A stretch of 64,000 nucleotides of DNA. It comes from Aurantiochytrium sp. KH105. Lineage: Eukaryota > Sar > Bigyra > Thraustochytrida > Thraustochytriidae. A model generated the notes under the pieces. The model saw only the letters and a program-made list of their open reading frames with translations, made no database searches and was not told the DNA's origin. Made by a program: the position numbers and the translations under genes. The stretch is taken from assembly GCA_003116975.1 (NCBI GenBank), contig BGKB01000059.1, positions 124,001 through 188,000 on the forward strand. The letters are read 5' to 3'. Below, one piece after another: positions 16,801 to 62,070 of this stretch; the stretch's first letter is position 1; every line of letters starts with the position of its first letter.

Positions 16801-19800
16801 AGGCCGCGCGCTTGGTTTCGAGGTAGTCCTCGAGACTCTTTTGAATCTTGTCAAGCGTCTCGTTGCAATTTTTGAATTTGTCACAAAGACCCGCCAGTGT
16901 GCACGCTTTCAGCGAATTCGGGTCGTCCGAGGTTCGCTTCATGTGAGCTTTCCAAAAGGTGTCCACCGCAAAGAATTTTTTGGACTCAACTGGGAGCTGG
17001 CGCTGGATATCCGGCGCCGAAAAAATTGTCTCAAGGTACATCCACCCACGTTGGCAGACAAGCCACTCGTCAAGGGTTTCCTGAAAGGTGACGAGCTTTT
17101 TGCGCCACGACTCGACAACATCCTTGATACCGGCAACGTAACGGGAACCCATGATGGTGCTAATGGTAACGAGGGAATCGTCAAGATTTGTCACGATCTC
17201 CTCGACGCTGCCGAGAATGTAAACGTCCTTTTGTTCCTTGTAGTTCTTGAGCTCGAGCTCTGAGGTACGCCACACATCCTCGATTTTGGTCAACATGGCC
17301 TCGAGCACCATTTCCTGCGCGGCAGCCACGGCGATGCCTTGGATTTCTTCCTCGAACTGACCAATTTGATTCTCCATGAGCTTGCCAAGCGTGAAGCCTT
17401 CGACGTTCTTGATCTCGTATCCGACGAGGTCGTGAATCTTCTTCCAGTGTCGCTCCTGCAGAGAGTCAGAACAAAGGGCCACAATGACGGGGAGGGTGAT
17501 CTGCACGTGATTGACCGCGTCCTTGAGGCTTGGACCCGAGGTCGAGTTGGGAAGCCCTCGAATAGCCTTGAAGGCGACCTTGTTGTGCACCTTGACCTGC
17601 TTGTCCATCTCTTCAGCGTCGAGGTCTTTGAATTCGGTGTTCATCCATTGCTGCAAGAGCGTGGACCACGACTTGATGCCAGTCCAAAGATCGTACTTGA
17701 CCTTTAGGTCTTGGACAACCTCGTCGAGAACCTCGAATTCGGACACCTCGAGGTCTAGGTAGGACTGGTTGCTCTGCAAAACTTCGATTTCTGTGCGGAT
17801 GCGTTCCAGCTTGTCGTTTTGCGTGGTCATGTACGTCACCATTTCCTCCATGTCGGCCCCGGCGTCTTCGATGCCCGGATGGTCGAGGGTTTCGCGCAAT
17901 GCTGTGATATCCTTTTGTACCTTGGGCACCTGGCTGCTAATGAGTTTGATAAATTTGGCCGTGTCTTCTTCCTTGCGAGCCTCGCATGCCTCGACGGTGG
18001 ACGTCAAGTCGTTGAGCTGATCCGTGATCATGCGCATGTGCGCGACTTCCTGCTCGGGGACAGGCCACTTGTGGCGTTCCAAAATCATCGCGAATTGTTT
18101 AATGTGACTGGAGCGGTCGCCGAGGTCCTTGAGGAGATCGGCGGCGATGGCAAGGAATTTACACTTTGTCGTGAATTCCGCCACGGTCGTCGGCTCGAAG
18201 GAGGCCTTGGCCATGTTTGTGGCAATATCCTCGAGCAGTTCCTTTGACTCGACGTTCATAATTCCAGGAATCACTTCCTTGATGGCCATGAGGCACTTGT
18301 ATGGGCTTGGCAAGAGCATCTTTTTTAAGGCACGCGAGTTGACCTGCATAATACCAATATCCGCCGAGATGGGGATGCCACCGAACTCGTTCTCCTGGAA
18401 TTTAAACTTTGCAATGAGCTCCTCAAATACGTTGAGCTCCAAAGAGCGAAACTCTTGGACCTCGTTCTGCTGCTTGCTAGCATTTTCTTCATAGGTGTCG
18501 CGGAAGGGCTCAAAGACACGCGCATATTCAAGCGCTTCGTCGACCGCTGCGCGCAAGTCGTCGAGAATGGTGCGCTTGACATTGGTGAACTCCTTTTGAT
18601 TGAGGATGATAGAGTCAAGCTCGAGATCATCCCCTCCGCCGCCGCCGTCGCCACCGCCTTCAGCGCCTGCGGCCTCGCCTTCCTTATTGGCCACTTGCGT
18701 GTATGGCGCGAGTTCTTCGTGAGTGAGAAGTCTATCGGCTGCAGTGAGGACACCAACGGCCTCATTGATGGACTCTTCAATGACTCCTTCAAAGACAGCG
18801 TAGTTGGGCTGCAAAATGAGCGGGGCGGCGTACTTGCGGCGTCGACGCAGGTCACGTGCCTCGGCTTTACGCTTTTCCCTATCTTCGGGCTCCTCATCCG
18901 GGTTTCTTTCGTCCTCCGGAGTCTCGTAGCCGTCTTCTTCGTCTTCCCCTTCTTCGAACTCTCTCTTCTCCTCCTCGGGGGTTGGAGCCTTGGGTTTCGG
19001 GCCGAAGGCAGTATCGACAGAGAAGAGAGGTACGGCTTCCTTGACGCCGCCTTTCTTTTCGATAACGATCTCCTTCTTCTTTTCCTCAGCGAGGCGTACG
19101 ATGCGCTTGGGGCGCACTTTGGGATTAACGATTTCCGAAAAGGATCGGGCCGAGGAGTACGCCATGTCGACAAGGGTCACATTCATTTGAAAGTCAATGA
19201 GACGGATGAACTTTGCAAGTTTCTTGCACTCGGTACGAAGAGCGGCGCGCTCCATAAAGGTCATCTTGTGGTCGGCGACGATTTCGTTGTGCTCAAGAAA
19301 CTCGTCGAGAACATGATCGCAGGCGTCGCGGACGATGCGGCGAATCTCGTCAGAGACCTCAATGACGGAAAGCTGGAGCTTTTCGCGGTGGGCTCGCTGT
19401 GTCTCGCGAAACTCGTCGAGGGTGTAGGTCTTGGAACGGTCCGCGCTCACGAGGCGACGCGCGCCGAGCGAGAGACACATTTGCCGAATCTGCAAGAGCG
19501 ACTCGCGCAAACGATTGTTGAGGATGAAAAGCTGCTTTTGCAGCACCTCGCTGCCGATTTTGCGTTTGGCGCCTCGTACGTTGCGCTTCCACATTGTAAA
19601 GTTTTTCCAGACGCGGAATCTCGCAAAGAAAGAGATACTCTTCATCTTCGAAAAGATGCGGAATTCGTGTTCCCAGAGGTCCATGGGGGTAAACTCAGCC
19701 TGCGAATCCGTAAAGTGCGTGACGCCCTCGCGGCTCAGGGTAAAGTAGTCTTCGGGGTCGACGTTTTTGTGGTCCACGACGCGAAGTTCGTACACGCTAT

Positions 19801-20581
19801 TAAAGGCGGCTCGTGGGCGCAGGTAAAAGAACCCTCCATTCTCGAACTCTTGGTTTTGTTTGGGCGTGAGCTTGAGCTGTGAGGCAAAACTCACCGGGTC
19901 AGAAGCATCATGATCCGCGAGGATGTCGCCTTTGGCGGGGCTGGGGGCAGTGGACTCGGCAGCTTTCTTCTGCGCTTTCTGTTGTGCAGACTTGCCAAGG
20001 ACGCCCATGGAGTTCATTGCCACTGAGGCAAGGGACGTTGGCCCGCTTGCCGCCGTAGTTTTCGCCGAGGCGGGCGTTGGTGCAGGCGCCGGGGCAGCTC
20101 GTGCGGAAGATTTTTCGTGGCGAGGACGCAAAAGGCCCTTGGCGAACTTGACAGGTTTTGAGTCCGTGCTCGGATCTGGACGCAAGATTTGCGTAGGTTT
20201 TGCGGTGAGAACAGACCCAGTGGTTCCAGTTCCTGTGACTCCAAGGGCGCCTTGTTTGGGCACAAGCTGCGACGATGACGCTTTAGGCGAAGCTCTTGCA
20301 ATTATATTGCGGCGGAGAGGGCTCGACGATTTATGTGAAGCCGCTGCTGATCCCGCGTAGAGCCGCGAGGAAAGATTGTTCTTGCGAGTAATGCCCGCCG
20401 CGAGTTCAGACTCTTTTTGCTCTTGCGTGAGGCCTGCGCCACTGGCGCTTTGGCCGGAAGCAAGGGGGTCCTCATCTTCGTGATTGTTGCTTTTGGTGGC
20501 ATTGTTCAATGTCGCAGCCATTCTCGTGGGTGAGTTACCGATGGCGGCGTCACGCGACTCATCGGAGCCTTTCCTTTCCAT
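7844..20581 (-). CDS. Axonemal inner-arm dynein heavy chain (DNAH7/DNAH3/DNAH12-like), intronless
   Basis: A single uninterrupted frame of 4245 residues starting at an ATG. Residues 1-270 are Ala/Ser/Pro-rich and unusual for the family. The linker region follows, with an acidic insert at about 540-575. P-loops are GPAGTGKTESS (AAA1, about 1524), GPTGGGKTT (AAA2, about 1805), GVTGTGKTS (AAA3, about 2162) and GVGGSGKQS (AAA4, about 2523); the AAA1 Walker B is CLDEFNRI. A coiled-coil stalk with microtubule-binding tip spans about 2760-3090, then AAA5, AAA6 and the C-terminal domain, which ends with the single-headed inner-arm signature VYKTSDRQGVLSTTG...STNYV. Motor of the ciliary inner arm, hydrolysing ATP at AAA1. 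A second acidic insert lies near residue 3520. The length fits the family (about 4000) plus the N-terminal extension. The choice of the DNAH3/7/12 subgroup is from recall of the C-terminus. Confidence 0.95.
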   Translation of the reverse strand: MERKGSDESRDAAIGNSPTRMAATLNNATKSNNHEDEDPLASGQSASGAGLTQEQKESELAAGITRKNNLSSRLYAGSAAASHKSSSPLRRNIIARASPKASSSQLVPKQGALGVTGTGTTGSVLTAKPTQILRPDPSTDSKPVKFAKGLLRPRHEKSSARAAPAPAPTPASAKTTAASGPTSLASVAMNSMGVLGKSAQQKAQKKAAESTAPSPAKGDILADHDASDPVSFASQLKLTPKQNQEFENGGFFYLRPRAAFNSVYELRVVDHKNVDPEDYFTLSREGVTHFTDSQAEFTPMDLWEHEFRIFSKMKSISFFARFRVWKNFTMWKRNVRGAKRKIGSEVLQKQLFILNNRLRESLLQIRQMCLSLGARRLVSADRSKTYTLDEFRETQRAHREKLQLSVIEVSDEIRRIVRDACDHVLDEFLEHNEIVADHKMTFMERAALRTECKKLAKFIRLIDFQMNVTLVDMAYSSARSFSEIVNPKVRPKRIVRLAEEKKKEIVIEKKGGVKEAVPLFSVDTAFGPKPKAPTPEEEKREFEEGEDEEDGYETPEDERNPDEEPEDREKRKAEARDLRRRRKYAAPLILQPNYAVFEGVIEESINEAVGVLTAADRLLTHEELAPYTQVANKEGEAAGAEGGGDGGGGGDDLELDSIILNQKEFTNVKRTILDDLRAAVDEALEYARVFEPFRDTYEENASKQQNEVQEFRSLELNVFEELIAKFKFQENEFGGIPISADIGIMQVNSRALKKMLLPSPYKCLMAIKEVIPGIMNVESKELLEDIATNMAKASFEPTTVAEFTTKCKFLAIAADLLKDLGDRSSHIKQFAMILERHKWPVPEQEVAHMRMITDQLNDLTSTVEACEARKEEDTAKFIKLISSQVPKVQKDITALRETLDHPGIEDAGADMEEMVTYMTTQNDKLERIRTEIEVLQSNQSYLDLEVSEFEVLDEVVQDLKVKYDLWTGIKSWSTLLQQWMNTEFKDLDAEEMDKQVKVHNKVAFKAIRGLPNSTSGPSLKDAVNHVQITLPVIVALCSDSLQERHWKKIHDLVGYEIKNVEGFTLGKLMENQIGQFEEEIQGIAVAAAQEMVLEAMLTKIEDVWRTSELELKNYKEQKDVYILGSVEEIVTNLDDSLVTISTIMGSRYVAGIKDVVESWRKKLVTFQETLDEWLVCQRGWMYLETIFSAPDIQRQLPVESKKFFAVDTFWKAHMKRTSDDPNSLKACTLAGLCDKFKNCNETLDKIQKSLEDYLETKRAAFPRFYFLANDELLEILAQTKDPQAVQPHLRKCFDALVGLDFGSKANSIDIEAMLSPEGERIELGKNLKARGNVEDWLSSVEHHMRISLQKLMKVGLLDYPTKERRHWVLEHPGQIVATAAQMTWVQGTESALRSEDSEHAMADWYQVNLDELQALIELIRGDLTKRQRRVIVALVTTDVHARDIVETLKRERISDVGNFTWQMQLRYYWDADVDDCRVRHSDAVINFGYEYQGCTTRLVITPLTDRCWMTITGSYGLKLGAAPAGPAGTGKTESSKDLAKALGVQCIVFNCSDQIDYKMMGKLFRGLAQTGAWTCLDEFNRIDIEVLSVVAQQLLLLRQGRLEGKARIMFMGVDILLKDHHVIVTMNPGYAGRTELPDNLKVCFRPVSMMVPDYALIAEIMLFAEGFGDAKTLSRKMIKLFHLSSQQLSQQPHYDYGLRAVKSVLVMAGGLKRGNPEVSEDVTLIRALRDSNVPKCLSEDLPLFYAIVSDLFPGVVVPTHDYGLFQEAIEQEISNMNLQPVPSFITKIIQQFDVFNVRFGATIVGPTGGGKTTCWKVLQAAMKNMRDRGVDDERYQYAEATVLNPKCITMGELYGEFNELTQEWHDGLASTIMRKAVNDCDGSDNVKRWTVFDGPIDALWIENMNTVLDDNMTLCLANGERIKLKVQMKCLFEVMDLAVASPATVSRLGVMYMAPEDLGWRPLVISWLASDALPEGTPAYVKEHLFEDFDLFVDDALRYMRRNCKEPVLTLNGDLVTALCKLFESLLRPEMGVKLFAKDASANLKEADAKKLVDKLFLFSLVWAVGGTISFEGWDGFNEMIRANFDGSDRKVQIPPGGVVYDYFVDIEGDPGGQWKSFEEIIPSFTFDASVPYFQLLVPSVDTTRYSYVIRQLMKRDRPVFLTGVTGTGKTSVVADTLSRASPLPEDDPEGLAVVPIFMSFSAQTSSFVTQNTIEGKLEKKRKTLLGAPAGRRVVIFVDDVNMPLVEEYGAQPPVELLRQFLDMKGFYDRDKLFWKDIEDTMIMVAAAPPGGGRNPVTPRFKRHFNILCMRPASSKTMQHIFKAILGGFAQAFPNDACRDLVAPIVASVVEIFERISLELLPTPAKSHYTFNLRDVSKVFQGILMTPAKKCAEPDTFALLFMHESMRVFHDRLINIEDKRWFTNLLIELVNRQLKLSMTHEKVFESDWPIMFCDFLRPGLAFDERMYEVAKDQAKVEQVLEDNLDEYNMSNPTQMNLVFFGDAIEHISRIARIIRQPRGNALLIGVGGSGKQSCTRLASFMSDFECFQIELVRGYGLGEFHEDIKELMIKTGVKGLNTVFLFTDTQIVEEAFLEDINNILNSGEIPNLFPQDEMDRILNDMIPVVKEMGIPETRENCRLQFIARVRDLLHIVLCMSPVGDSLRIRCRNFPSLINCTTIDWYMEWPQSALQSVAQRFLAELDVTPEVRESLVSICGEIHTSVIEISEEFFDKLRRRVYTTPKSYLDLIDLYRSMLAEKRQELKVVEKRMEVGVQKLNETNQIVDDLQAELVKLQPVLVVKAAETEKLIEQVNKDKAEAAVVEERVAKDEAVVKAQAAEVGAVQADAQADLDVAMPALNDALKSLDSLDKKDITEIKSFAKPPPAVQTVMEAICILFGSKPDWDNSKKLLNDANFMKNLKEYDKDNIPAAALKKIKKYVGMEIMQVENVRKVSIAATSLCMFVHAMDIYSEVAKEVAPKMAKLKEMNAQMDQANALLAEKQAELQAVRDKVAALQQQLDESLAAKKELEDQSQLTKDRLVRAEKLTSGLESEGVRWKQTLVNIAQDMELLTGDVMISAGCISYYGAFTGPFRKRLVDQWLSRCRELNIPCTEGASLQNTIGNPVQLRAWQIDGLPSDAVSADSALLVFRGKRWPLMIDPQGQANRWIKNTESVNNLEVIKMSNPNLLRSLENGIRVGRPVLIEDLDEHIDPSLEPVLQKAVFFQGGRKLIHLGDSDIDYDDNFKFYMTTKMPNPHYLPEICIKVTLINFTVTFIGLTDQLLGDVVKSERPDVEEKKNKLVTTMAADAKQLKDLEAKILQLLSESTGNILDDEVLINTLADSKTTSAIIHERVEESKKTQVSIEEARASYRPVATRGAIIYFVIADLTQIDPMYQYSLSFVKALFLTSLTLPQPADDGMDDKSEFERRIAHLLKAQTEYIFTQVARGLFETHKSLFASLICFQILLEAVSISRPEFMLMLRGAGVVDRTDMPGPPAEAVDAELLNDAQWDNICAMDRDLKLVVRKSSDGAEGNAEEDNGDDEEEGEDSEDPTQETYRPFAGLATAIAEDFDTWRPWFESDGPYFENMPGDFESQINSFQKLMLVKVVKEESLLVAMNSFVEKSLGRCFVEFPPVQMEDVYVGTNRFTPLIFVLSQGADPTAMLLKFAKEKGYGERLHVISLGQGQGPHAERLIENSVKNGDWVLLQNCHLAKSWMPTLEKIVLGLEENQDVIHEDFRLYLTSFPATYFPVTVLQNGVKLTNEPPKGLRANLIRSFDNNIVSESIWEGCLKPQPWKKLLVGFSFFHALVQERRKFGPLGWNIRYEFNDSDLETSRETLRRFLDEQATVPWDALLYVTGQINYGGRVTDDWDRRCLMGILQKFCNPGILVDEYKFSKSGLYYAPPECSFGEVNVYLKQLPMVDNPEVFGMHKNAEITFQKAESTNMITTMLGLQPRESGGGGGMSSDDIVLDLVAEIEGQVPEFLDKELAGPNTFVVLDSGLISSLDTVLSQEMVKFNKLIRTMNSTLKELARAIKGLVVMSLDLDKMYSAFLVNQVPPNWANVGFASRKTLMSWVKDMIFRVEFLRTWLYEGQPVTFPLQAFFFPQGFMTGTLQTHARKYKVAVDELTFNNSIINKEPEEIVESPEDGVLVYGMWMEGARFNRESELMDQSLLGQMFTALPPVHLIPEINFLPDPVDYRCPVYKTSDRQGVLSTTGMSTNYVLAVSVKTDVDPNTWVMMGCACLLNLDD

Positions 20582-50077: not shown

Positions 50078-53000
50078 ATGACCAGCCACTGGTCGCCACT
50101 GTGCACTGCAGCGTGTGTCCATTGGCAAAACAGTCTCAGGCCACGTGAATGGGCCCCAGAACCAAAATCAACTAGTGGGCCCGACAGGAAAACGAGCATG
50201 GGCTGCATGCACCAGAGGCTCGCGCCTGCCGCGCAATGGCTGCAGGAAGTGGGGCAAGACTTTGGCCGGCCAGGACTTTCAACCCTAGTGCTCTCCGGGA
50301 TCATCAATGGCCTCCTCATGTTCGTCTTTTGCTGTGTCTTCGCCATCCTTGTATTCCAGGACAAGCGCGATGATAGTACCGTCCTCAAAGACTTTCTGCC
50401 CGTCGGCGTGTCCATGCACATCTTCTCCGTCATGATGGGAAGCATCTTTTACGCTTGCTTCACGAGCTGTAAGGCTTCCATCGCGGGCCCCGACATCAAT
50501 CCAGCGCTCTTCTTTGCCCTCATCGTCGAGTCCATCCAGCTCGGCGCCGACTCGCAAAACCCTACGCCTATAGAGGCAATCCTACCAACCTCGCTGCTGG
50601 CCATCTGCATCGGGACCATCGTCATCGGCGTCACCTTTCTCACGCTCGGACACTTCAAGCTCACGCGTATCGTGCAGTACCTGCCAGCCTCGCTCCTCAA
50701 TGGTTTCCTCGCCTGTATTGGTTACAAGGTCATGAAGGCCGCGCTGACCACCACGTGCGGCGATATCTACTACAAGAAGCCTGGCAAATTCATCTTTTGG
50801 AAACTCATCCTGCCGGCGCTACCCGTAGGCTTTGGCTTGTACTTGGCCAAGGCATATCACATTGGCCAGCCCGGTGTAACATTCCCCGTCATCTTGCTCG
50901 TGCCGCTGGGCCTCTTTTACGCTGCGCTTGTCATCTCTGGAACCTCGCTCGAGCAAGCTCGAGACCAGTGTCTCGACGTCGAGTCGAGCGCCTCTTGCGC
51001 AGGCGGGTGGTTCTACCCTGAGTTTGGTAGGGGCGAGTTCGGCGCCGTGTACAGTACGCTGGATCTTGCACACGTCGACGTGGGCGCCTTACTGTACTCT
51101 TTTAGCGACCTTCCGGCCATGCTGCTCATCGTTGTCATTGACTACTTGCTCAAGCTTGCGGGCACGAAAAAGGCCGTAGGTTTCGATTTTCCCTTTGACA
51201 ACGAGATGAAGACGGCCGGTATGGCGTGTCTGGCTAGCGCTGTCGGAGGCTTTAGTCCGCCGGCGTATTCGCAGACCAAGTTCACGGTGCTGAACATTGG
51301 CATCACTCACAATCCAGAGAGCCGCGTACCCGGTATCGTGACGGGTCTGTTCAACGCGGTACTGTACTTTTGGGGGTTCCCGCTGATCAACTATCTTCCT
51401 CGCTTCTTCCTCGGCGGTTTGCTCATCTACGCTGGTCTTGGCTTCGTGGTGGACAATCTGATCAAGAGCTGGAATCGCGTCTCGCGCGAGGAGTTTATGG
51501 CGATCTGGACGATTGTGATCGTGAATGCGGCAACAAGTCTGCTGGTTGCTGTGGTGGTGGGCATTATCTTGTCAGCCATCATCTTTGCAATCGCGTACGG
51601 GCGCATCAGTGTTGTCAAAGCATTTATACCTGGAGAGGCTTACGAATCACATGTCGTTCGAAACATTCTGGATTCGGACAAGATTGCTCATGTCGCTCAG
51701 CGATATGCCATTGTGCAAATGCAAAACTACATTTTCTTTGGATCAGCAGGCCAGATTTTAGACTTTGTCAAGGTCATCTTTCGCGCTGAGCAGTCGAAAA
51801 GACATGTTTTGCGTCTGCAGTACCTCATCTTTGACTGGACGCATGTGTACGGTATTGACTACAGCGGCCTTGGCGTCTTTCTTGATATCATCAACATGGT
51901 CAAGAGAAAGAACGTCAACATTGTGTTTACTGGCGTCGATGCGCCCATTTTGAATTCAATGATTCGCGAGAATCTTGTGCAGCACGTTGCAGGTATCTAC
52001 AGCTCACTTGATCAGGGTGCCGAGTGGATCGAAGAGCAGCTGCTTGAGTGGGCACATCTTGTTCGCTCGCGATGGCTCGAGTTTCGTCCTGTTATTAAAA
52101 TGCACGAACGAGCGAAAAATAAAGCCATCTATGATGTATTTGGCCAAATCGTGAACAAGCACGACTATGGCCGAATCATTGGAGATGCCACGACACGTCG
52201 GGTACTGAGCAAAGATGAAGTTCTCTGTGAAATCGATGATGTCGCAACCGACATGTACATTGTGCAGCAGGGTAAACTCGCATCATATAAACGCGATGGC
52301 GCTGGCAAGCTCGTTCGTGTCGGCTCGTACGCTAGGGGCGCGTATATCAACGAGATGGCAATCTTCTCCTCGGCCAAGCTTCAACATCGAGTTGTCGCTG
52401 AGGGACCATCTGGTACCATTGTGCTGCAGCTCAGTGCTGATACCTGCCGAAGACTAGAAGCGGAGCGCCCGGACGTCCTTGCTGAGCTGCAACGAACGAT
52501 TCTCAGGTACTATCGTCAACATGGAATCAAAGCTGAGCGCAAAGATCAGATTCACAATGCGAGGCAGAACCTCAAGCAACTAATGGCTTTTCACGCTAAA
52601 GTTCTGCACACACAGGGTGCAGCGGGCTTGAATGTTTTACCGAGAGGACTGCAGTCGGAAGATTCAGAGGAAGACATTGACGCGTCAAACGAAAATGGCG
52701 AGGCCTTCATGGGAAACGATGGCTCAATCGAGAGCAACGGGAGCATCCCAACCTTGAATGGTCCCCAGGGTAGATCAGGCGAGTCTCAGCGAGGAGACGA
52801 ACAGCGCAAGTCTGGGCGCAACAGTGATTGGAATGCAATCACGAAGCAAGCAAATCCACGCAAAGTTTCACCTTACCTCGAATCACCGGGCGATGACGCG
52901 CTGGTCCTTTCCAGCAACAACAGCTTGGAAGCCTCCTTCAGGGCCGTGTCTGGAGCGACATCGCGGACGACAATCACAGGCCCTGTCCCGGACGAGGTGT

Positions 53001-55885
53001 CCCGGCATATGGAAGCACTCACCACGGGCGTTGCTCTTGTGCACGCTGCACTCAAATTGACGGGTGAGCAAACATCAACCCCTCTACGAAACGTTCTTCG
53101 ACACTGGACGGAAGATCGAACTCTCAGCGATATGGGGCATTCACGCGAGACGCAATATCTGTTCGGCTCCAATACAGTCGCTCAGCTCGCGAACACCAGC
53201 GACGCAGCGCCGATACGAACCTTCAATCAGTCGCTGCAACTTTCCTCTACGGGGATGCTGTGTCTGAGCCCTGAGCGCATCAAGGCCAGCATGGACTGTT
53301 TTCGCGCGCACGATACGCGAGGCGCGCAAAGGCTCGACACTAAACAAGTCCTTGACGCACTCCAAAAACTTGGCCATCACATCAACGAGAGAGACTTGGC
53401 AATACTTCTCGCCCTCGATGCACATGGAGACTTATACGTCGCAGACGAAAGCAATTATGGTCTCCTCAAGTCGCGCACGTCAATCCTCACGCTTTTGCGC
53501 GACCACAGTGCGCACACTTCGACACGGCATGTTGACAGCGCAGAGATCAAACGAGAATCACAGATCGAGCTCATGAGTACCATGTTACGCTCAACGGCGT
53601 TTTTCCCTGTTCTAGAGAGCTCCAATGAGGGATTCACAAGTGCGACCGCGGAACGCTCCGAGATCCTCATTTTTCGCCGCGAAGAAGCCCTTTGCATGGA
53701 AGGGAACCCGGTCAACAGCATGTTTATCATCCTCGACGGAGTTCTGTCCGTCACACAAGGCGACACGACACGAACGGTTCACGTGTCGCACTCCCCATTT
53801 GTGATTGGGGCCGACACCATACTGCATCCTGGCACCATTCCGCAGCACGCAATCTCGGCAACAGTCGTCTCACAGCGAAGCATCGCAATTGAGATTTTGC
53901 GATCCACGCTGCTAGATCTCGTCCCTGGCACGGATCCGACTTTGCGCACCGAACAGAAGAAAGCTGTGCGTCTTGCTGAAATTCAACGTGAAACCGCGCG
54001 CAAGGCGAAATCCTCTTCGGGATCAGTTCGCCGCATCGAATCTGTTCTCGCGCAGCAGCAGAAGGCAACATTTGGTGAGCGCTACCGCGCTTTGGCTAGC
54101 GTTGATCTTTTCAAACCTGTCGCTGAGCTCGACCCTTCGCTTCTCTCGCGCCTTGCATCGGGGTCCGAGGTCATCGTTTTCCATGAGGGTCAGTCCATCT
54201 ATCTTCGAGGTGCAACAGCCAATGCAATTTTTGTTGTCATATCGGGTGCGGCTCGCATTGAGCAACCGTCTCAAACAGAAGAAAACCCTAGAACGCTGGC
54301 TGAACTCTCAGTCTCCAACGGGAAAACGGAAAGAGCCTTTGTGCTCGGTCAAGCAGAGTTTTCCAATGGCACGGCTAGCTACGAAGATGATGCAATCTGT
54401 GCGTCGGAAACCATGGTCGCGCTCAAGCTGTCACGTGGCTCGCTGCGGAATTCGTTTGAGGAAACGCATCCAATCTGGGAAGTCTTTCAAGATAACGCTG
54501 AACGCGGCAACAACCGAGCTTCGAGAGCGCGAATGGCGGCAAAACTGGGAAATATCCGGCAAAAGACACTGCGGATGATTCGATCTCCTTCGACGCGAAG
54601 ACCTTCTGACGATTCAACACACCAGGGTTCTGGCAAGTTTGCAAGTGCAAAGGAATCCAAGAGCAAACGCAAGGGTAATGAGAACGAGCTTCGTCGCATC
54701 ATGTCTTCGCCTAATGTGGCTGGAGCAATTTCCCCGCAAAGTCCACTCTCACCTCAACAAAAAGAACAAGATGACGCGCAATCTGCGAGCATCAATCAAG
54801 GTGCCCGTGGCAACCTTGATCTCAGCAACAACAATAGCAACAATGACAAGGATAAGGACAATGACATTGACATTGATAATGACAATGACCATGACAACAG
54901 TAGCAATGACACCAGCAATGATGATAACAACAACAGCAAGAACGAAGGCAACGTCGAGCAAACGATGCCTATGACGCAGCATGTCCATCGAGGCACTGAG
55001 GTAGAGCTTTTTCAGTTCCTAAACCTCGTCACGCGACTGAGCCTCTATCCGCTATCGTCAGGTCAAGTGTCAGCCCTTTCTAAGCTCTTCAAAATGTATG
55101 CGAGCTCTCTACTTTCTAGAAGCAAAAGGAGCAGTCCCGGCGACACGGACATTCTCGACATTGACGCCGGTCAAGACGGAAATGAAAAACACGGAGGAGC
55201 AATCTGCGTCATCACCAGAAAAAAACTTCGCAAACTTTTTGAAGACGCGGAGCTGCAGGTCCTCTGCCACAACATTGATGTAGTCCTACAAGAATGGGCT
55301 TCTGAAGACGCTGATGTTCCAGCTCTTACTTTGCAAAGTTTCGTCTCGGTGATAGCACTCGATGTGCAGAACGAACAAACTTTACTCGAGGTTGAGTCGG
55401 TCTACAAGACCATTCTGGGCTTTCACGACCAGCGAGACGGAGCTGTCGCCGCCTTTGTCGATTCGTGGACGCCGGAGACAGGCCATGGTATGTCTATCTC
55501 AGAGAAGTGGGAGCTTGTCACGAATACATTTGATCTGGGCATTACTTCACGAGATATCCAAGAATGCTGGAAGCGTTTCATCGATGCCGAGATATCCTTT
55601 GAAGCAGCGGAAGAAATGGTCTTCGAGGCGGATCTCGGTGGCGCGGGCTACATTACCTTTCAAGAATTTGTCGACGCCGTCGAATTCGTCCATCCCATCG
55701 AGCTGACATCTTCTATGGCTGACATTGTCATGCTCCAGAGGCAAATTAAACAGGCAAACTCTCCAACCGCGAGTCTTACTCGAATGTTCAGGGGCTCAAA
55801 CCGACGCGGCAGTGTGTCCCGGGCTCTCCTTGCCACCGCAGGACCCCTCTATAAGAGAACCAATAGTTCCCTCGATCATAAGTAA
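50078..55885 (+). CDS. Giant SulP-family transporter with STAS, three cyclic-nucleotide-binding and EF-hand-like regions (copy A)
   Basis: A 1935-residue intronless protein starting at an ATG; internal Met at 41 and 44 are alternative starts. A SulP membrane domain spans about 70-505 (LVLSGIINGLLMFVFCC, AGPDINPALFFALIVES, VGGFSPPAYSQTKF). A STAS domain follows at about 545-665 (YAIVQMQNYIFFGSAGQI, FDWTHVYGIDYSGLGVFLDI). cNBD1 is at about 707-820 (DMYIVQQGKL, SYARGAYINEMAIF). An EF-hand-like region at about 1060-1115 precedes cNBD2 (about 1190-1280, NSMFIILDGVLSV) and cNBD3 (about 1340-1460, IYLRGATANAIFVVISGAARI). An Asn/Asp-rich linker and a C-terminal EF-hand-like pair (EADLGGAGYITFQEF) complete it. 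The membrane part resembles the fungal Vsb1-type SulP group; the substrate is not established. Regulation by cyclic nucleotides and Ca2+ is inferred. Confidence 0.85.
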   Translation: MTSHWSPLCTAACVHWQNSLRPREWAPEPKSTSGPDRKTSMGCMHQRLAPAAQWLQEVGQDFGRPGLSTLVLSGIINGLLMFVFCCVFAILVFQDKRDDSTVLKDFLPVGVSMHIFSVMMGSIFYACFTSCKASIAGPDINPALFFALIVESIQLGADSQNPTPIEAILPTSLLAICIGTIVIGVTFLTLGHFKLTRIVQYLPASLLNGFLACIGYKVMKAALTTTCGDIYYKKPGKFIFWKLILPALPVGFGLYLAKAYHIGQPGVTFPVILLVPLGLFYAALVISGTSLEQARDQCLDVESSASCAGGWFYPEFGRGEFGAVYSTLDLAHVDVGALLYSFSDLPAMLLIVVIDYLLKLAGTKKAVGFDFPFDNEMKTAGMACLASAVGGFSPPAYSQTKFTVLNIGITHNPESRVPGIVTGLFNAVLYFWGFPLINYLPRFFLGGLLIYAGLGFVVDNLIKSWNRVSREEFMAIWTIVIVNAATSLLVAVVVGIILSAIIFAIAYGRISVVKAFIPGEAYESHVVRNILDSDKIAHVAQRYAIVQMQNYIFFGSAGQILDFVKVIFRAEQSKRHVLRLQYLIFDWTHVYGIDYSGLGVFLDIINMVKRKNVNIVFTGVDAPILNSMIRENLVQHVAGIYSSLDQGAEWIEEQLLEWAHLVRSRWLEFRPVIKMHERAKNKAIYDVFGQIVNKHDYGRIIGDATTRRVLSKDEVLCEIDDVATDMYIVQQGKLASYKRDGAGKLVRVGSYARGAYINEMAIFSSAKLQHRVVAEGPSGTIVLQLSADTCRRLEAERPDVLAELQRTILRYYRQHGIKAERKDQIHNARQNLKQLMAFHAKVLHTQGAAGLNVLPRGLQSEDSEEDIDASNENGEAFMGNDGSIESNGSIPTLNGPQGRSGESQRGDEQRKSGRNSDWNAITKQANPRKVSPYLESPGDDALVLSSNNSLEASFRAVSGATSRTTITGPVPDEVSRHMEALTTGVALVHAALKLTGEQTSTPLRNVLRHWTEDRTLSDMGHSRETQYLFGSNTVAQLANTSDAAPIRTFNQSLQLSSTGMLCLSPERIKASMDCFRAHDTRGAQRLDTKQVLDALQKLGHHINERDLAILLALDAHGDLYVADESNYGLLKSRTSILTLLRDHSAHTSTRHVDSAEIKRESQIELMSTMLRSTAFFPVLESSNEGFTSATAERSEILIFRREEALCMEGNPVNSMFIILDGVLSVTQGDTTRTVHVSHSPFVIGADTILHPGTIPQHAISATVVSQRSIAIEILRSTLLDLVPGTDPTLRTEQKKAVRLAEIQRETARKAKSSSGSVRRIESVLAQQQKATFGERYRALASVDLFKPVAELDPSLLSRLASGSEVIVFHEGQSIYLRGATANAIFVVISGAARIEQPSQTEENPRTLAELSVSNGKTERAFVLGQAEFSNGTASYEDDAICASETMVALKLSRGSLRNSFEETHPIWEVFQDNAERGNNRASRARMAAKLGNIRQKTLRMIRSPSTRRPSDDSTHQGSGKFASAKESKSKRKGNENELRRIMSSPNVAGAISPQSPLSPQQKEQDDAQSASINQGARGNLDLSNNNSNNDKDKDNDIDIDNDNDHDNSSNDTSNDDNNNSKNEGNVEQTMPMTQHVHRGTEVELFQFLNLVTRLSLYPLSSGQVSALSKLFKMYASSLLSRSKRSSPGDTDILDIDAGQDGNEKHGGAICVITRKKLRKLFEDAELQVLCHNIDVVLQEWASEDADVPALTLQSFVSVIALDVQNEQTLLEVESVYKTILGFHDQRDGAVAAFVDSWTPETGHGMSISEKWELVTNTFDLGITSRDIQECWKRFIDAEISFEAAEEMVFEADLGGAGYITFQEFVDAVEFVHPIELTSSMADIVMLQRQIKQANSPTASLTRMFRGSNRRGSVSRALLATAGPLYKRTNSSLDHK
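50288..51588 (+). repeat. Near-identical SulP membrane-domain segment, copy A
   Basis: 1301 bp aligned without gaps to 56560-57860 (offset 6272) with about seven substitutions counted by eye, roughly 99.5 percent identity. Similarity drops abruptly at both ends although the reading frame continues. Confidence 0.9.
54815..54952 (+). repeat. AAC/GAC/AAT triplet-rich tract encoding an Asn/Asp linker
   Basis: Repeated AAYGAC, AAYAAY and GACATTGAC units encode a mostly Asn/Asp/Ser/Lys stretch of about 45 residues in SulP copy A. Copy B lacks an equivalent run. Confidence 0.8.
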
Positions 55886-56451
55886 GAAGCCTAGACAAAC
55901 AATTTTAAGCGCATGATCGTTCAAACACGACCATGCCTGCCTACTGTCCGTTGCCCTGGCCTGTACATAATAGGCATACTGCAGCTTGCAGACCCTAGCT
56001 TTACGCTACGGCAAAATACTTCTATCCGCGATATAACATGGCACCACTAGCGCGCAACAGCGCTGACGCGGCCGAAGCTCGAGTTGGTCTCTCTTTCTAC
56101 ACGAGTGCGGCACGGTGCGGTGCCCCAAGCCTGTAACCTTAGATGCGTGGTGCCACAGTGGCGCACAGTGGCAGCCTGCTGAAGCTACTACTAGTCCTAC
56201 CAGAAATAGCGTAACCGTCATAAAACAAAAGTGCATACATGTACGTTAGCCGTCTCCCACTCAGCCACTGTCGAAATTTAGCTCACCACTTGACGGAGGC
56301 GTCTGTCTACGCAGCCTCATTGCCAGTGCGCCGCGTGTCTGTCTGTCGGCTAGGCCATGACTCACAGAGGCAACGTGGTTATTAGGAAAAGCAAAGCCGT
56401 GCGAAAGCAAAAGGCTTGGCTCTCGGGCCAGCGAGGAGAGGAACGACGAGG
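55886..56451. other. Spacer between the two SulP genes
   Basis: Holds the 3' flank of copy A and the leader of copy B. It is not similar to the region upstream of copy A by eye. A GGCACGGTGCGGTGCC-like imperfect palindrome lies at about 56107-56123. No gene is recognised. Confidence 0.55.
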
Positions 56452-59400
56452 ATGGCACAAGCCTCGACACCATGGCCCTCGCGCGCGGGTAGCATAGCAA
56501 AGTCCTTGCGCAGGGCACTAAAAGGATCAGACCTGCATGGATCAGGACTGCTAACCTTGGTGCTCTCCGGGATCATCAATGGCCTCCTCATGTTCGTCTT
56601 TTGCTGTGTCTTCGCCATCCTTGTATTCCAGGACAAGCGCGATGATAGTACCGTCCTCAAAGACTTTCTGCCCGTCGGCGTGTCCATGCACATCTTCTCC
56701 GTCATGATGGGAAGCATCTTTTACGCTTGCTTCACGAGCTGTAAGGCTTCCATCGCGGGCCCCGACATCAATCCAGCGCTCTTCTTTGCCCTCATCGTCG
56801 AGTCCATCCAGCTCGGCGCCGACTCGCAAAACCCTACGCCTATAGAGGCAATCCTACCAACCTCGCTGCTGGCCATCTGCATCGGGACCATCCTCATCGG
56901 CGTCACCTTTCTCACGCTCGGACACTTCAAGCTCACGCGTATCGTGCAGTACCTGCCAGCCTCGCTCCTCAATGGTTTCCTCGCCTGCATTGGTTACAAG
57001 GTCATGAAGGCCGCCCTGACCACCACGTGCGGCGATATCTACTACAAGAAGCCTGGCAAATTCATCTTTTGGAAACTCATGCTGCCGGCGCTACCCGTAG
57101 GCTTTGGCTTGTACTTGGCCAAGGCATATCACATTGGCCAGCCCGGTGTAACATTCCCCGTCATCTTGCTCGTGCCGCTGGGCCTCTTTTACGCTGCGCT
57201 TGTCATCTCTGGAACCTCGCTCGAGCAAGCTCGAGACCAGTGTCTCGACGTCGAGTCGAGCGCCTCTTGCGCAGGCGGGTGGTTCTACCCTGAGTTTGGT
57301 AGGGGCGAGTTCGGCGCCGTGTACAGTACGCTGGATCTTGCACACGTCGACGTGGGCGCCTTACTGTACTCTTTTAGCGACCTTCCGGCCATGCTGCTCA
57401 TCGTTGTCATTGACTACTTGCTCAAGCTTGCGGGCACGAAAAAGGCCGTAGGTTTTGACTTTCCCTTTGACAACGAGATGAAGACGGCCGGTATGGCGTG
57501 TCTGGCTAGCGCTGTCGGAGGCTTTAGTCCGCCGGCGTATTCGCAGACCAAGTTCACGGTGCTGAACATTGGCATCACTCACAATCCAGAGAGCCGCGTA
57601 CCCGGTATCGTGACGGGTCTGTTCAACGCGGTACTGTACTTTTGGGGGTTCCCGCTGATCAACTATCTTCCTCGCTTCTTCCTCGGCGGTTTGCTCATCT
57701 ACGCTGGTCTTGGCTTCGTGGTGGACAATCTGATCAAGAGCTGGAATCGCGTCTCGCGCGAGGAGTTTATGGCGATCTGGACGATTGTGATCGTGAATGC
57801 GGCAACAAGTCTGCTGGTTGCTGTGGTGGTGGGCATTATCCTGTCAGCCATCATCTTTGCCCTTACGTACGGGCGGATCGGGGTGGTCAAGGCATATTTT
57901 CATGGATGCGACTACGAGTCCAAGGTTGTCCGAAGCGTAAAGGACGCCTCCAAGCTGACTCATCTGAGCAAAAGGTACGCGATCGTGCAAATGCAAAACT
58001 ACATTTTCTTTGGCTCGGCAGGACAAATTCTCGACTTTACGAAATCTCTGCTCGCGGAACAGGCTCAAGTGTCGCGTATGGGACGAGTGCGCTACCTCAT
58101 CTTTGACTGGACGCATGTGTACGGTATTGACTACAGCGGCCTTGGCGTCTTTCTTGATATTGCAAATGTCTTGAAAAAGCACGAGGTCATGTTTGTTTTC
58201 ACGGGCGTCAAGGAAAACATCATTCGCAGCATGTTGCGAGAAGGCATCCTCCAGCACGGCGCAGCAGTTCTTGATCATCTCGATCTTGGCGTTGAGTGGA
58301 TCGAAGAGCAGCTGCTTGAATGGGCACACCTTGTCCGCTCGCGATGGCTCGAATTTCGTCCTGTTGTCAAGCTCCATGACCTTGCAAGGAATAAAGCCAA
58401 GCACGATGCTCTGGAAGAGATTCTTAAAGACACCGGATTTGGAAACGAGCTCTGGCGTTTCGTGAAACGGGTCGTCATTGCCAAGGGCGAGACGCTGTGC
58501 GAGCCCGGCAAACCTGCGGAATCGCTCTACATTGTGCAGCAAGGAAAATTCTCCTCTGTTTTTGCAGACGCGAATGGCAATGTGCGCAAAATTCGATCGT
58601 ATGCTCGAGGTGCGTACATTAACGAGATGGCGGTCTTCACGACAGCCCTGCAACAGCACAAAATTATCGCAGATACAGAAAATTGTGCGGTTATTGTCAT
58701 GACGCAGTACGAGATTTCGCGCCTTCGCGCCTCGCGACCTAACATCTTCATGGCTCTACAGCAGACGATTCTGCGCCACTACTGGCAGAGTAATCTCAAA
58801 CTTGAGCGAGAAATCTCGGACTTTGAGCAGTTTGCACCGCTCCCGGGGGATCTGAGGCAGCAGAACTCATTCGACGCCGAAGCGAGCGCATCTGTCAAGT
58901 CTCGCTCTGGGAAATTGGCGAAACGGGCATCCATGCTGAGTCGCGGATCATCTTTTGTTTCTCATCTCTTTATGATAGGCGGGCTTTCAGCATCAGCGGC
59001 GGCGCATGATAGGGGCTCTTTGATCGGATCATCGACACATATTCCGAGCGCCGCAAACATGATGGCGAGTTTTCGAGGCTCGCAAAAAAAGGCAATGCAA
59101 GCCTATAACGGATCGGAAGCAAGCTCAGTCCATGTTGAGGAAGCCGGGCTTGCCTTTCTGCATGCGGCCATCAATCTCATCCAAAAGGACTCCGAGCGCT
59201 GGCTTATTCAAGACGAGCTCCTTGGTGCTGGACTCACCAATAAAGTTTCAACAGGGACGACCCTAAACGTCCTCTTTGAAGGATTTTCTTCCGAAATCGA
59301 GCTTCTTCACGGCAGGGCAGGCATCGTCCGGCTTCAAGCATATACCGACGAAGTGCATAATGTAGAAGCCGTAGAACGCCCTGCGCGCATTTGCGAGGAC

Positions 59401-62070
59401 GAGGAAGACCTCTGCGCAGAAAGCACGAGCCTGGGGCCAGAGAAAAGTACCCGCGCCGAATCTGTCGATGAAACAAGCTCAAACGCGACATCCATCAAGA
59501 CATGGGAGGAAGCGGTTTGTTGCAAGCTCAGCAAAAAGGTCGAAGCGGAGTGTCGCGCCGTATTCCAGACTTATGCGAGCCAAAACGAAGACGGGAAAGT
59601 TCTTGCCACGCAGGTCATTCAGATGCTGCAAGACACAGGGCACTATCTCAGCCAGAAAGAAGCAGCTCTTCTCATGCATGGTCGGACTTGGTCGGCCTCT
59701 TCTGGGGACACGAGTTCCATTGCGGAGAATCCGCAAATGGAGTTTATGTCTCTCCTGCGAGGCGTTGAGAAGGAAGACCTTACTCGGCACATTGACACTG
59801 CAAAAATATCTCGTACCAAGCAGCTCGAGTTCGTCAAGCTCTTTCTTTCGAATACTGCCGTTTTCGCGGATCTCGAACTCTCGATTCCGGGAATCATCTC
59901 TGCAGTGGCCGAACGTTCCGAGCTGCTCGTCTTTCATCAGGGCGAGTGCGTCTGCGCCGAATCTGCCCCCGTAAATAGCATGCTCATTGTTGTCGACGGT
60001 ATGATTACCGTACGCAAGGGCACGACAAAGCGAACGATGCACGCCTCACAAAGCCCCATTCTCTTTGGCGAGGATCTAGTCTTCCTTCCTGTCAAGGAGG
60101 TCGGTACATTTTCTTCCTCTGCAGAAATTGCGTCGACTCACGCAGTGGTCATCGAGGTCTTTCGCCACGTTTTGCAGCGCGCAGTCCCGCAAGAACACTC
60201 CAAGTCGAGGCAATTACAAAATCGCGCGATTCGGCTAAAGATAGAACAAGAATCACGGTATCAACTGCCTTCCGTACGTAAAGTCCTGCCCGTCATTCGT
60301 CAGCAGCAGCGAGCTCCCTTTGGGGCAAGGTATCGTGCTCTCGCTTCCGTCGACCTCTTCAAGGAGAGTGTTCAAGCGGACCCGTACCTCATCTCGCGTG
60401 TCGCTGCTGAAACGGAGCTCATCACCTTCGATCAGGACGAGTTTGTCTTTCGACAAGGCGATGTTGGTGACTTCTTGCTGGTTGTAGTAGCTGGAGACAT
60501 CAAGGTAAGAATCCGACACGAGAACGGCGTATCACATACACACACCATTCATTTCAATGAGTCTAAAGGCGGGTATGTTCTCGGCGAGCTAGCATTTTAC
60601 ACGCGCAGACATGAACGTACCGCAGATGCCATTGTTCACTCGGAGACGCTCATGGCGCTTAAAATCTCGCGATCCTCGCTTCAGTCCATCTTTGAGTCAT
60701 CGCACAGTATATGGGCTCTCATCCGTGATCGAGCTCACAAGTTCAATCACATCAAGGAGGAACTTCCTTCCGTGGGCGTCAGTGCCAGGCTCAAACAGAT
60801 TGGGGCTCAGACCTATCGTCGGCTAATCAACAACAACTCCACCAACATCAACTCATCCGCAAAGTCACCCGCCGAAATGGGCGACAATGCAGCACCTCCG
60901 GGAAGCTCGGTCTCAAACGCTAATAATGAGCAAAGTGATACTGGCAACTCGAGCATCTTTCGGGCCATTAGCGCTGAATCTGAAAAACGGAATCGAGACA
61001 TGCAAAGGACCTCGTCTCAGAGTAGCCAAGGGACGGTCTCGGAGGCAGACTTTCTCAACATCGTGTCCATGCTCACGTTCTATCCGCTGTCTCTCAAGCA
61101 CGTGGCCATCATTCGCAAGGTCTTTGAGCTTTACGCAACAGCTCCATTGCACCGGCACAGACACATTTACGGCAAGGGATCTCTTGCAAGTGCAGAGGAC
61201 TTGTATCCTGAGGGCTGCATAACACTCTCCAATCTTTCCTCAATGATTGAAGATGCCGGACTTGTACTTCACGAGAAAGTGCTTGCTCATGTCATGGACG
61301 AGTGGAAAATTACTGATGCAACTGGATACCTTGAGCCCGCCATCTCTTTCACAAGCTTACTGTCTATCATTGCTGCTGCTGTGAAAAGACAACGATTGCT
61401 TCTCGAGGTCGAGACAATCTTCAAAATTATCTTAGCAAACGATGAGGTCATGGGCCCCAAACTTAAAAAGGGACTGCAAAGTGTGGAAAGTCGCGCGGTT
61501 CCGACGGATCAAAAGTGGAGGCGACTTGCCGCAAAGAAAATCGGAATCACCCCGGAGATTCTCCGCGGTGCATGGCTCGAGTTTCTTGATGTTGATCTTA
61601 GCCCTGAGGCTGCCGAGGAGATGATATTTGAAGCGGACGAGTCAGAAAACGGGTTTGTCTCCTTTGGAGACTGGCTTGATTCCATTCACAGCGTCTATCA
61701 GATCGAGGTCGAGGGCACAGACAACTTCACGGTGTTCGAGACAAAGATGATGGGACTCGACCGTACAATCAGTACAGATCTTCGTCGCGACGACTCCGTC
61801 TCCTTTTCAACCTCATTTCAGAATGCAGTACCAATATCACGTTCCGAATATCTCAAGGCGAGCGGAAGCGACAGCTTCTCAAGTTCCGCTTTGGCTACTT
61901 TCGGCAAGCGCATTGCGAGTCTTGGGCCAGGTATTTTGAACGATACTAAAAACATCGTTACTTCGGCACGTCGGAGCTCCAGGACCCGTGTAACTCCCGA
62001 GCCCGCCAGACCCGAAGGCATGGCCAATCGACGCGTATCCTCGGCACCTTTTACATCACCCAATCTATAG
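56452..62070 (+). CDS. Giant SulP-family transporter with STAS, three cyclic-nucleotide-binding and EF-hand-like regions (copy B)
   Basis: An 1872-residue intronless paralogue of the upstream gene. Start at the ATG at 56452 (MAQAST); the frame upstream opens only with TTG. The membrane domain (about 36-470) is nearly identical in DNA to copy A. The STAS region is similar but diverged except for short identical islands. cNBD1 lies at about 676-790 (SLYIVQQGKFSSV), cNBD2 at about 1150-1240 (NSMLIVVDGMITV) and cNBD3 at about 1293-1412 (FVFRQGDVGDFLLVVVAGDI). The last keeps a more canonical GDxGD-type turn than copy A. A C-terminal EF-hand-like segment (EADESENGFVSFGDW, about 1722) follows. The N-terminus and all regulatory parts differ strongly from copy A, so the copies probably carry the same ion or solute under different control. 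Confidence 0.85.
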   Translation: MAQASTPWPSRAGSIAKSLRRALKGSDLHGSGLLTLVLSGIINGLLMFVFCCVFAILVFQDKRDDSTVLKDFLPVGVSMHIFSVMMGSIFYACFTSCKASIAGPDINPALFFALIVESIQLGADSQNPTPIEAILPTSLLAICIGTILIGVTFLTLGHFKLTRIVQYLPASLLNGFLACIGYKVMKAALTTTCGDIYYKKPGKFIFWKLMLPALPVGFGLYLAKAYHIGQPGVTFPVILLVPLGLFYAALVISGTSLEQARDQCLDVESSASCAGGWFYPEFGRGEFGAVYSTLDLAHVDVGALLYSFSDLPAMLLIVVIDYLLKLAGTKKAVGFDFPFDNEMKTAGMACLASAVGGFSPPAYSQTKFTVLNIGITHNPESRVPGIVTGLFNAVLYFWGFPLINYLPRFFLGGLLIYAGLGFVVDNLIKSWNRVSREEFMAIWTIVIVNAATSLLVAVVVGIILSAIIFALTYGRIGVVKAYFHGCDYESKVVRSVKDASKLTHLSKRYAIVQMQNYIFFGSAGQILDFTKSLLAEQAQVSRMGRVRYLIFDWTHVYGIDYSGLGVFLDIANVLKKHEVMFVFTGVKENIIRSMLREGILQHGAAVLDHLDLGVEWIEEQLLEWAHLVRSRWLEFRPVVKLHDLARNKAKHDALEEILKDTGFGNELWRFVKRVVIAKGETLCEPGKPAESLYIVQQGKFSSVFADANGNVRKIRSYARGAYINEMAVFTTALQQHKIIADTENCAVIVMTQYEISRLRASRPNIFMALQQTILRHYWQSNLKLEREISDFEQFAPLPGDLRQQNSFDAEASASVKSRSGKLAKRASMLSRGSSFVSHLFMIGGLSASAAAHDRGSLIGSSTHIPSAANMMASFRGSQKKAMQAYNGSEASSVHVEEAGLAFLHAAINLIQKDSERWLIQDELLGAGLTNKVSTGTTLNVLFEGFSSEIELLHGRAGIVRLQAYTDEVHNVEAVERPARICEDEEDLCAESTSLGPEKSTRAESVDETSSNATSIKTWEEAVCCKLSKKVEAECRAVFQTYASQNEDGKVLATQVIQMLQDTGHYLSQKEAALLMHGRTWSASSGDTSSIAENPQMEFMSLLRGVEKEDLTRHIDTAKISRTKQLEFVKLFLSNTAVFADLELSIPGIISAVAERSELLVFHQGECVCAESAPVNSMLIVVDGMITVRKGTTKRTMHASQSPILFGEDLVFLPVKEVGTFSSSAEIASTHAVVIEVFRHVLQRAVPQEHSKSRQLQNRAIRLKIEQESRYQLPSVRKVLPVIRQQQRAPFGARYRALASVDLFKESVQADPYLISRVAAETELITFDQDEFVFRQGDVGDFLLVVVAGDIKVRIRHENGVSHTHTIHFNESKGGYVLGELAFYTRRHERTADAIVHSETLMALKISRSSLQSIFESSHSIWALIRDRAHKFNHIKEELPSVGVSARLKQIGAQTYRRLINNNSTNINSSAKSPAEMGDNAAPPGSSVSNANNEQSDTGNSSIFRAISAESEKRNRDMQRTSSQSSQGTVSEADFLNIVSMLTFYPLSLKHVAIIRKVFELYATAPLHRHRHIYGKGSLASAEDLYPEGCITLSNLSSMIEDAGLVLHEKVLAHVMDEWKITDATGYLEPAISFTSLLSIIAAAVKRQRLLLEVETIFKIILANDEVMGPKLKKGLQSVESRAVPTDQKWRRLAAKKIGITPEILRGAWLEFLDVDLSPEAAEEMIFEADESENGFVSFGDWLDSIHSVYQIEVEGTDNFTVFETKMMGLDRTISTDLRRDDSVSFSTSFQNAVPISRSEYLKASGSDSFSSSALATFGKRIASLGPGILNDTKNIVTSARRSSRTRVTPEPARPEGMANRRVSSAPFTSPNL
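56560..57860 (+). repeat. Near-identical SulP membrane-domain segment, copy B
   Basis: The partner of 50288-51588. Substitutions include two conservative residue changes (Val to Leu and Ile to Met); the others are silent. Confidence 0.9.

Follow-up and report, generated by a model that had tools for sequence, protein, structure and literature searches.

Tandem SulP-STAS genes of Aurantiochytrium combine a membrane domain homogenised by gene conversion with diverged cyclic-nucleotide-binding-type and calmodulin-like tails

A published analogue of the layout described here is Vsb1, the vacuolar cationic amino acid transporter of yeast, which consists of a SulP domain, a STAS domain, a helical junction and an essential C-terminal RmlC-like domain. 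Complementation is lost when the RmlC-like domain is removed, and a role in dimerisation or oligomerisation has been proposed for this jelly roll (PMC13160679). According to that paper, an RmlC-like domain in a transporter had previously been reported only for the cyanobacterial LtnT; LtnT of Synechococcus elongatus is likened to the proteins studied here through that description. In Aspergillus, a cyclic-nucleotide-binding domain (cNBD) is named in a figure legend for transporters including sulfate-transporter/STAS proteins (PMC5541321). Moreover, bacterial proteins annotated as 'SulP family inorganic anion transporter' show the order SulP-STAS-cNBD that is also seen in the proteins below. 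To our knowledge, direct cyclic-nucleotide binding has not been shown to regulate any SulP/SLC26 transporter, and a search of the open-licence literature found no such case.

Here we describe two adjacent genes, A and B, lying head-to-tail on the forward strand in Aurantiochytrium sp. KH105, within a 64,000-nucleotide stretch of DNA that was analysed as a whole (the window; contig C59). The neighbouring genes encode a dynein heavy chain, SNAPC1, Gcd10 and a PX-START protein and fit a eukaryotic nucleus; the dynein heavy chain frame is intron-free and 4245 codons long (7844-20581, reverse strand). The source assembly comprises 76 Mb in 367 contigs, and matches to A fall on contig pairs. A second A/B pair is found on contig C88, with protein identities of 96.7% (A) and 97.5% (B), and the paired contigs therefore look like two haplotypes. 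Statements on conservation below rest on these two haplotypes and on paralogues, all of one genome. The C88 allele of A carries an in-frame TAA upstream of Met41; this indicates that the first ATG of the A frame is not the start, and Met41 is the likely one. Met41 and Met44 of A are common to both haplotypes. Counted from the likely starts (Table 1), the predicted proteins have approximately 1895 (A) and 1872 (B) residues; an earlier note, made from the letters of the window, put each above 1850.

Table 1. Features of the A and B genes. Positions are those of the window; residues are those of the respective frame.
Feature	Position	Strand	Remarks
Gene A frame	50078..55885	+	1935 codons; likely start Met41 at 50198
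A SulP membrane domain, conversion tract	50288..51586	+	residues 71-503; PF00916 over 109-476
A STAS	51692..52012	+	residues 539-645; Pfam E 4.8e-11
A cNBD1	52199..52456	+	residues 708-793; 49.0 bits; cassette Asn-Glu, Leu at the canonical Arg place
A EF-like helix-loop, degenerate loop	53291..53395	+	residues 1072-1106; EF-hand_7 19.4 bits, cut-off 30
A cNBD2	53672..53920	+	27.1 bits; cassette without Glu and without Arg
A cNBD3	54176..54451	+	21.9 bits; cassette Glu replaced by Gln, without Arg
A calmodulin-like tail	54980..55696	+	last loop at 55631-55666 (DLGGAGYITFQE), without ligands 3 and 5
Gene B frame	56416..62070	+	1884 codons; likely start Met13 at 56452
B membrane domain, conversion tract	56560..57858	+	matches A residues 71-503
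B STAS	57976..58248	+	residues 521-611; Pfam E 1.7e-10
B cNBD1	58471..58725	+	residues 686-770; 51.1 bits; cassette Asn-Glu, Gln at the canonical Arg place
B cNBD2	59929..60183	+	20.6 bits; Glu present, cassette region without Arg
B cNBD3	60424..60699	+	residues about 1337-1428; 40.4 bits; Glu and Arg (GELAFYTRRHERTAD), unique among the six
B calmodulin-like tail	61030..61710	+	last loop 61636-61671 (DESENGFVSFGD)

Both proteins run from a SulP membrane domain through STAS and three cNBD-type domains to a calmodulin-like tail. Pfam detects Sulfate_transp, STAS and three cNMP_binding stretches in each, with Sulfate_transp and STAS scores of 58.9 and 42.8 bits in A and 61.5 and 41.1 bits in B (cut-offs 23.2 and 22.6), which places both in SulP/SLC26 by sequence. 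Scored as single domains against the Pfam cNMP_binding cut-off of 27.5 bits, cNBD1 of A and cNBD1 and cNBD3 of B lie above it, and cNBD2 of A (E 4.3e-6), cNBD3 of A (E 1.8e-4) and cNBD2 of B (E 4.5e-4) lie below. The cNBD2 and cNBD3 profiles match one another (hhalign 95.7%); cNBD2 alone matches a bacterial cNBD profile weakly (16.7%, E 0.0015; reversed control 2.0%, E 0.025). A degenerate EF-like element follows cNBD1 and precedes cNBD2; it scores below the Pfam cut-off in A and has no Pfam match in B. Its match to a paralogue, C, is weak (hhalign 6.7%, E 0.0015) and its kinship is therefore unproved. After cNBD3, A and B share a helical tail. The reading of each protein as a SulP/STAS transporter joined to three cNBD-type domains and calcium-type helices, as first proposed, is borne out by the Pfam stretches and by the match of the tail profile to calmodulin described below. 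The accompanying count for the window, at least eight cNBDs, is reached when the degenerate second cNBD of a metallo-beta-lactamase-fold protein (3936-7157) is included. The first cNBD of that protein is canonical (GETSLVTGAPRNAN); the protein shows a weak resemblance, below cut-off, to the anti-Pycsar nuclease Apyc1 and may be a cyclic-nucleotide-regulated hydrolase or phosphodiesterase.

We compared A and B with bacterial relatives. An alignment of A, B and C used as query confirmed no relatives in bacterial or archaeal genomes or viral contigs; these were found with the bacterial alignment, which gave at least 589 pattern matches and 428 confirmed stretches. The set used below (n = 86) consists of the best 80 of these 428 and six of eight plasmid records. 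The plasmid records were matched by the core of A in tblastn; in seven of the eight the match took in the cNBD and spanned at least 80% of the query (90-97% of the core). Within the last 300 residues of the best 80 of 428 genome loci, Pfam finds cNMP_binding in 80/80 and STAS in 79/80, and no EF-hand family at E up to 0.001; all six plasmid proteins carry cNMP_binding. The frames of these 80 loci span 670-1007 codons, against the far longer frames of A and B (Table 1). Moreover, a single cNBD stretch is present in 10/10 bacterial proteins with stretches shown (six plasmid and four long frames), whereas A and B have three. A tree of the SulP-STAS columns (54 rows: 44 bacterial, A to E of this genome, and five of its classical SulPs as outgroup) puts all cNBD-type rows on one side of the outgroup with an SH-aLRT of 100 and unites A to E in one clade (96). 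The tree is the product of a quick search and has some long branches, and the placement of A to E among the bacteria is insecure. L108, a weak SulP match whose longest frame was the wrong one, was left out of the trees. Judged by the cNBD after STAS and by SulP-STAS kinship with the bacterial members, A and B belong to the SulP-STAS-cNBD clade.

The combination had been thought undescribed, which stands in part. SulP-STAS-cNBD proteins are common in bacteria and the SulP-STAS-jelly-roll form is published in Vsb1 and LtnT, but the form with three cNBDs and a calmodulin-like tail was not found in the open-licence literature. Vsb1 differs from A and B in having one jelly roll, and section 8 of the paper mentions no EF-hand in it (PMC13160679). 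A and B are a large, elaborate form of known, widespread SulP-STAS-cNBD transporters, rather than a new kind.

Two of the plasmid loci have neighbours worth recording. On an Acaryochloris plasmid (L017:2944-7022) two related SulPs are adjacent, one with and one without a cNBD by Pfam; the second nests inside the cNBD-type rows of the tree, so that its cNBD was probably lost, and the duo is a possible natural pair in which to test the role of the cNBD. On an Ensifer plasmid (L022:2878-8043) a SulP-STAS-cNBD gene lies near a metallo-beta-lactamase-fold hydrolase and a protein with an adenylate/guanylate cyclase domain, a neighbourhood suggestive of a cyclic-nucleotide circuit.

Within the genome, paralogue C (contigs C31/C14; frames of 1684/1733 codons) resembles A and B in its SulP-STAS-cNBD1 order and has the same calmodulin-like tail (hhalign 98.2%). 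It differs from them in large STAS insertions, and no cNBD2-cNBD3 was found in it, so that either the A/B line gained this pair by insertion or C lost it. Paralogues D (C77/C57) and E (C48/C242) are SulP-STAS-cNBD proteins of one clade with A to C. Unlike A and B, they have frames of 1137 and 1014 codons and one terminal cNBD (two stretches in D), and no EF-hand family was detected in them at E 0.1. A further close copy of the cNBD2-cNBD3 pair was not seen among the best candidates scored in the same genome, which gave four weak cNBD matches (E 8e-6 to 2.5e-4), and cNBD3 of B had no match on plasmids. With both haplotypes taken together, the genome holds 154 or more cNMP_binding matches, a count from scoring 150 of the 279 candidates, and some of the frames concerned exceed 2000 codons and have two or three cNBDs (e.g. 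on C104 and C59).

A canonical cassette with both Glu and Arg is present in one of the six cNBDs of the pair, cNBD3 of B (A 0/3, B 1/3). In cNBD1 the Gly, Glu and Arg columns are occupied by Asn, Glu and then Leu, Gln or Val in A, B and C, respectively. At the same columns the bacterial relatives (best 80 of 428 plus six plasmid) have Gly in 86/86, Glu in 80/86 and Arg in 53/86, the Glu and Arg pair that cNBD1 of A and B lacks being kept in 52/86. An Arg three residues past the canonical column in cNBD1 of A is replaced by Lys in B and by Thr in C, and is therefore no conserved substitute. Loss of the canonical Arg would leave room for another ligand or a non-canonical binding mode, and 33 of the 86 bacterial relatives (best 80 of 428 plus six plasmid) are likewise without it. 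In cNBD3 of B (GELAFYTRRHERTAD) the Glu and RTAD align with GE..RTAN of PKG I, and the loop before the Arg is one residue longer than in the bacterial reference row from Shinella. A Thr after the cassette Arg is a sign of cGMP binding. The two haplotypes agree in the cassette status of all six cNBDs. The C88 allele of B shows two exchanges: in cNBD1 the Leu that immediately precedes the Arg column is replaced by Pro, and in cNBD2 the Leu ahead of the Gly is replaced by Ile.

The calmodulin-like tail was identified by profile. When five rows (A and B from both haplotypes and paralogue C, amounting to three sequences) were combined in a profile, calmodulin was matched with a best E of 1e-10. The match extends over both lobes (calmodulin residues 23-92 and 99-148). 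Single tail sequences give Pfam EF-hand E values of 0.014-0.32, below the cut-off, and 0.087 against troponin C. These sub-cut-off scores had raised the suspicion of a chance resemblance, which was rejected on the profile match. The last EF loop reads DLGGAGYITFQE in A, DESENGFVSFGD in B and DLSANGGVSYED in C, and that of A has no side-chain ligands at positions 3 and 5. Going by the ligand residues, it is plausible that this loop is calcium-competent in B and C and impaired in A. The remaining EF loops of the tails are degenerate as read from the alignments, and within A and B only the last loop of B seems complete.

These residues bear on the idea that cyclic nucleotides and calcium gate both proteins directly, with all of their domains taking part. 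Three cNBD-type domains and a calmodulin-like tail in each protein would suit such gating, as would the cyclases and phosphodiesterases (PDEs) encoded in the genome (37 and 25 domain matches, both haplotypes together). However, five of the six cNBDs are without the Glu and Arg pair, with no cassette Arg at all in cNBD2 and cNBD3 of A and cNBD2 of B, and among the EF loops read that of B alone seems complete. We therefore regard gating through all domains as very unlikely. The gating proposed by the earlier note, which would have fallen had the cNBDs and EF loops lacked their ligand residues, divides between the two proteins. Ligand residues are wanting in A (no cassette in three, EF ligands 3 and 5 lost) and present in cNBD3 and the last loop of B; gating is therefore possible in B and not indicated in A.

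Comparison of the two haplotypes indicates that the degenerate domains are nevertheless maintained. Over the whole gene the allelic dN/dS comes to 0.15 in A and 0.10 in B. By domain (A, B), and with small non-synonymous counts of 1-5 per cNBD or tail, it is 0.080 and 0.041 in cNBD1, 0.072 and 0.046 in cNBD2, 0.085 and 0.078 in cNBD3 and 0.080 and 0.117 in the tail. The EF-like element gives 0.30 and 0.15, the first linker 0.34 and 0.25, and the second linker 0.60 and 0.11, the second linker of B (0.107) being no less constrained than its tail (0.117). The cNBDs and tails of A and B, degenerate ones included, are kept under purifying selection. Thus the degenerate cNBDs probably have a structural role or bind a different ligand. 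In another reading the tails are ligand-free scaffolds that hold dimers and partners together, activity being set by expression or phosphorylation. The degeneracy of five cNBDs out of six fits it, as does the oligomerisation role proposed for the Vsb1 jelly roll (PMC13160679), but cNBD3 and the last EF loop of B retain their ligand residues in both haplotypes, which a pure scaffold would not need, and we consider it a rather unlikely alternative.

The available signatures do not class A and B as classical sulfate permeases. Against TIGR00815, A and B score 59.3 and 60.3 bits, with a cut-off of 380.45. In TM1, A, B and C carry Phe at the classical Gln column and again at the classical Tyr column, and the TM8 Glu of classical SulPs is Leu in A and B. 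These residues are weak criteria, since only three of the five classical SulPs of this genome have the TM1 Gln and two of five the TM8 Glu. Vsb1 has Asp-223 in the classical Gln column, and its TM1 pair, Asp-223 and Tyr-227, is likewise replaced by two Phe in A, B and C, the positions being mapped indirectly through the classical Gln/Tyr column (PMC13160679). Sulfate transport, considered as a function, is unsupported given the TIGR00815 score and the absent TM1 Gln; neither sulfate nor amino-acid specificity is supported for A and B. The two Phe, together with the very large regulatory tails, might instead indicate that A or B is a sensor (transceptor) built on a SulP fold and not a transporter. 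Yet the membrane domain shows constraint when alleles are compared and homogenisation when A is compared with B, and bacterial members of the clade also vary at the TM1 column, a qualitative comparison that includes three wrong-frame rows. We give this possibility little credence.

The likeness of the two genes changes along their length. The tail domains of A and B are approximately 30-40% identical and the membrane part is almost identical. In the membrane domain (residues 59-515) dS between A and B is 0.055 on C59 and 0.105 on C88, against allelic values of 0.068 (A) and 0.122 (B), so that the C59 value is below both and the C88 value between them. By contrast, dS in STAS is 1.76 on C59 and 1.54 on C88, and most of the remainder is saturated. 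Site patterns across A and B on both contigs agree with this. Codons 86-490 hold no paralogue-specific site in 1215, and 14 sites at which A equals B within a haplotype but differs between haplotypes; STAS has 124 paralogue-specific sites in 393 and three of the haplotype type, and cNBD1 has 202 paralogue-specific sites in 420. The zone of zero paralogue-specific sites (residues 71-503) coincides with the membrane domain. Within it, 11 of the 14 haplotype-type sites fall at 384-473, and differences private to B on C88 dominate 184-346. This uneven distribution suggests that there was probably more than one conversion event, at least one of them younger than the split of the haplotypes. Consensus polishing could alter single sites, yet would hardly bring approximately 30% divergence down to none. 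Taken together, these patterns show that recurrent gene conversion has homogenised the membrane domains of the two genes. The ends of the tract may simply mark where divergence had gone too far for conversion to work; a common pore may also be favoured by selection. We claim no priority for the conversion pattern in transporters as such. The main novelty is that a homogenised pore is joined to diverged regulators, one of them ligand-competent by its residues and the other not.

The reading we favour, and hold to be reasonably probable, is that A and B are tandem SulP/SLC26-type dimers whose activity is set by their tails, with cNBD3 of B as the sensor, cNBD1 as a structural element and the pore homogenised by conversion. 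Both proteins would probably be dimers, and their cytosolic tails would set transport activity. The cNBD1, tied to STAS by a helical junction and without the Arg for the cyclic phosphate in A, B and C, is most likely a structural or dimerising module, by analogy with what has been proposed for the jelly roll of Vsb1. Of all the sites, cNBD3 of B alone would be expected to bind a cyclic nucleotide, which may be cGMP given the Thr that follows its Arg, and the calmodulin-like tail of B would be at most a one-site calcium sensor, acting through its last EF-hand. A, with the same pore and no canonical sensor, would be insensitive or would depend on B for any response. Recurrent gene conversion would hold the two membrane domains alike while the tails differ. 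This suggests one pore with two different regulators, possibly in a heterodimer. That A and B form an obligate heterodimer with one type of pore, in which B is ligand-competent through cNBD3 and the last EF-hand, A is ligand-blind, and the pore and dimer interface are kept in step by conversion that stays within the membrane domain, we judge unlikely; if true, it would parallel, among transporters, the heteromeric cyclic-nucleotide-gated channels.

A cNBD is present in each of the 86 bacterial relatives (best 80 of 428 plus six plasmid), yet no direct response to a cyclic nucleotide is known in SulP/SLC26. On the favoured reading of tail-regulated dimers, cNBD3 of B offers a specific domain in which such a response may be tested, with A as a natural loss-of-site control on a near-identical pore. 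Moreover, the conversion pattern represents a natural separation of the transport core from its regulation.
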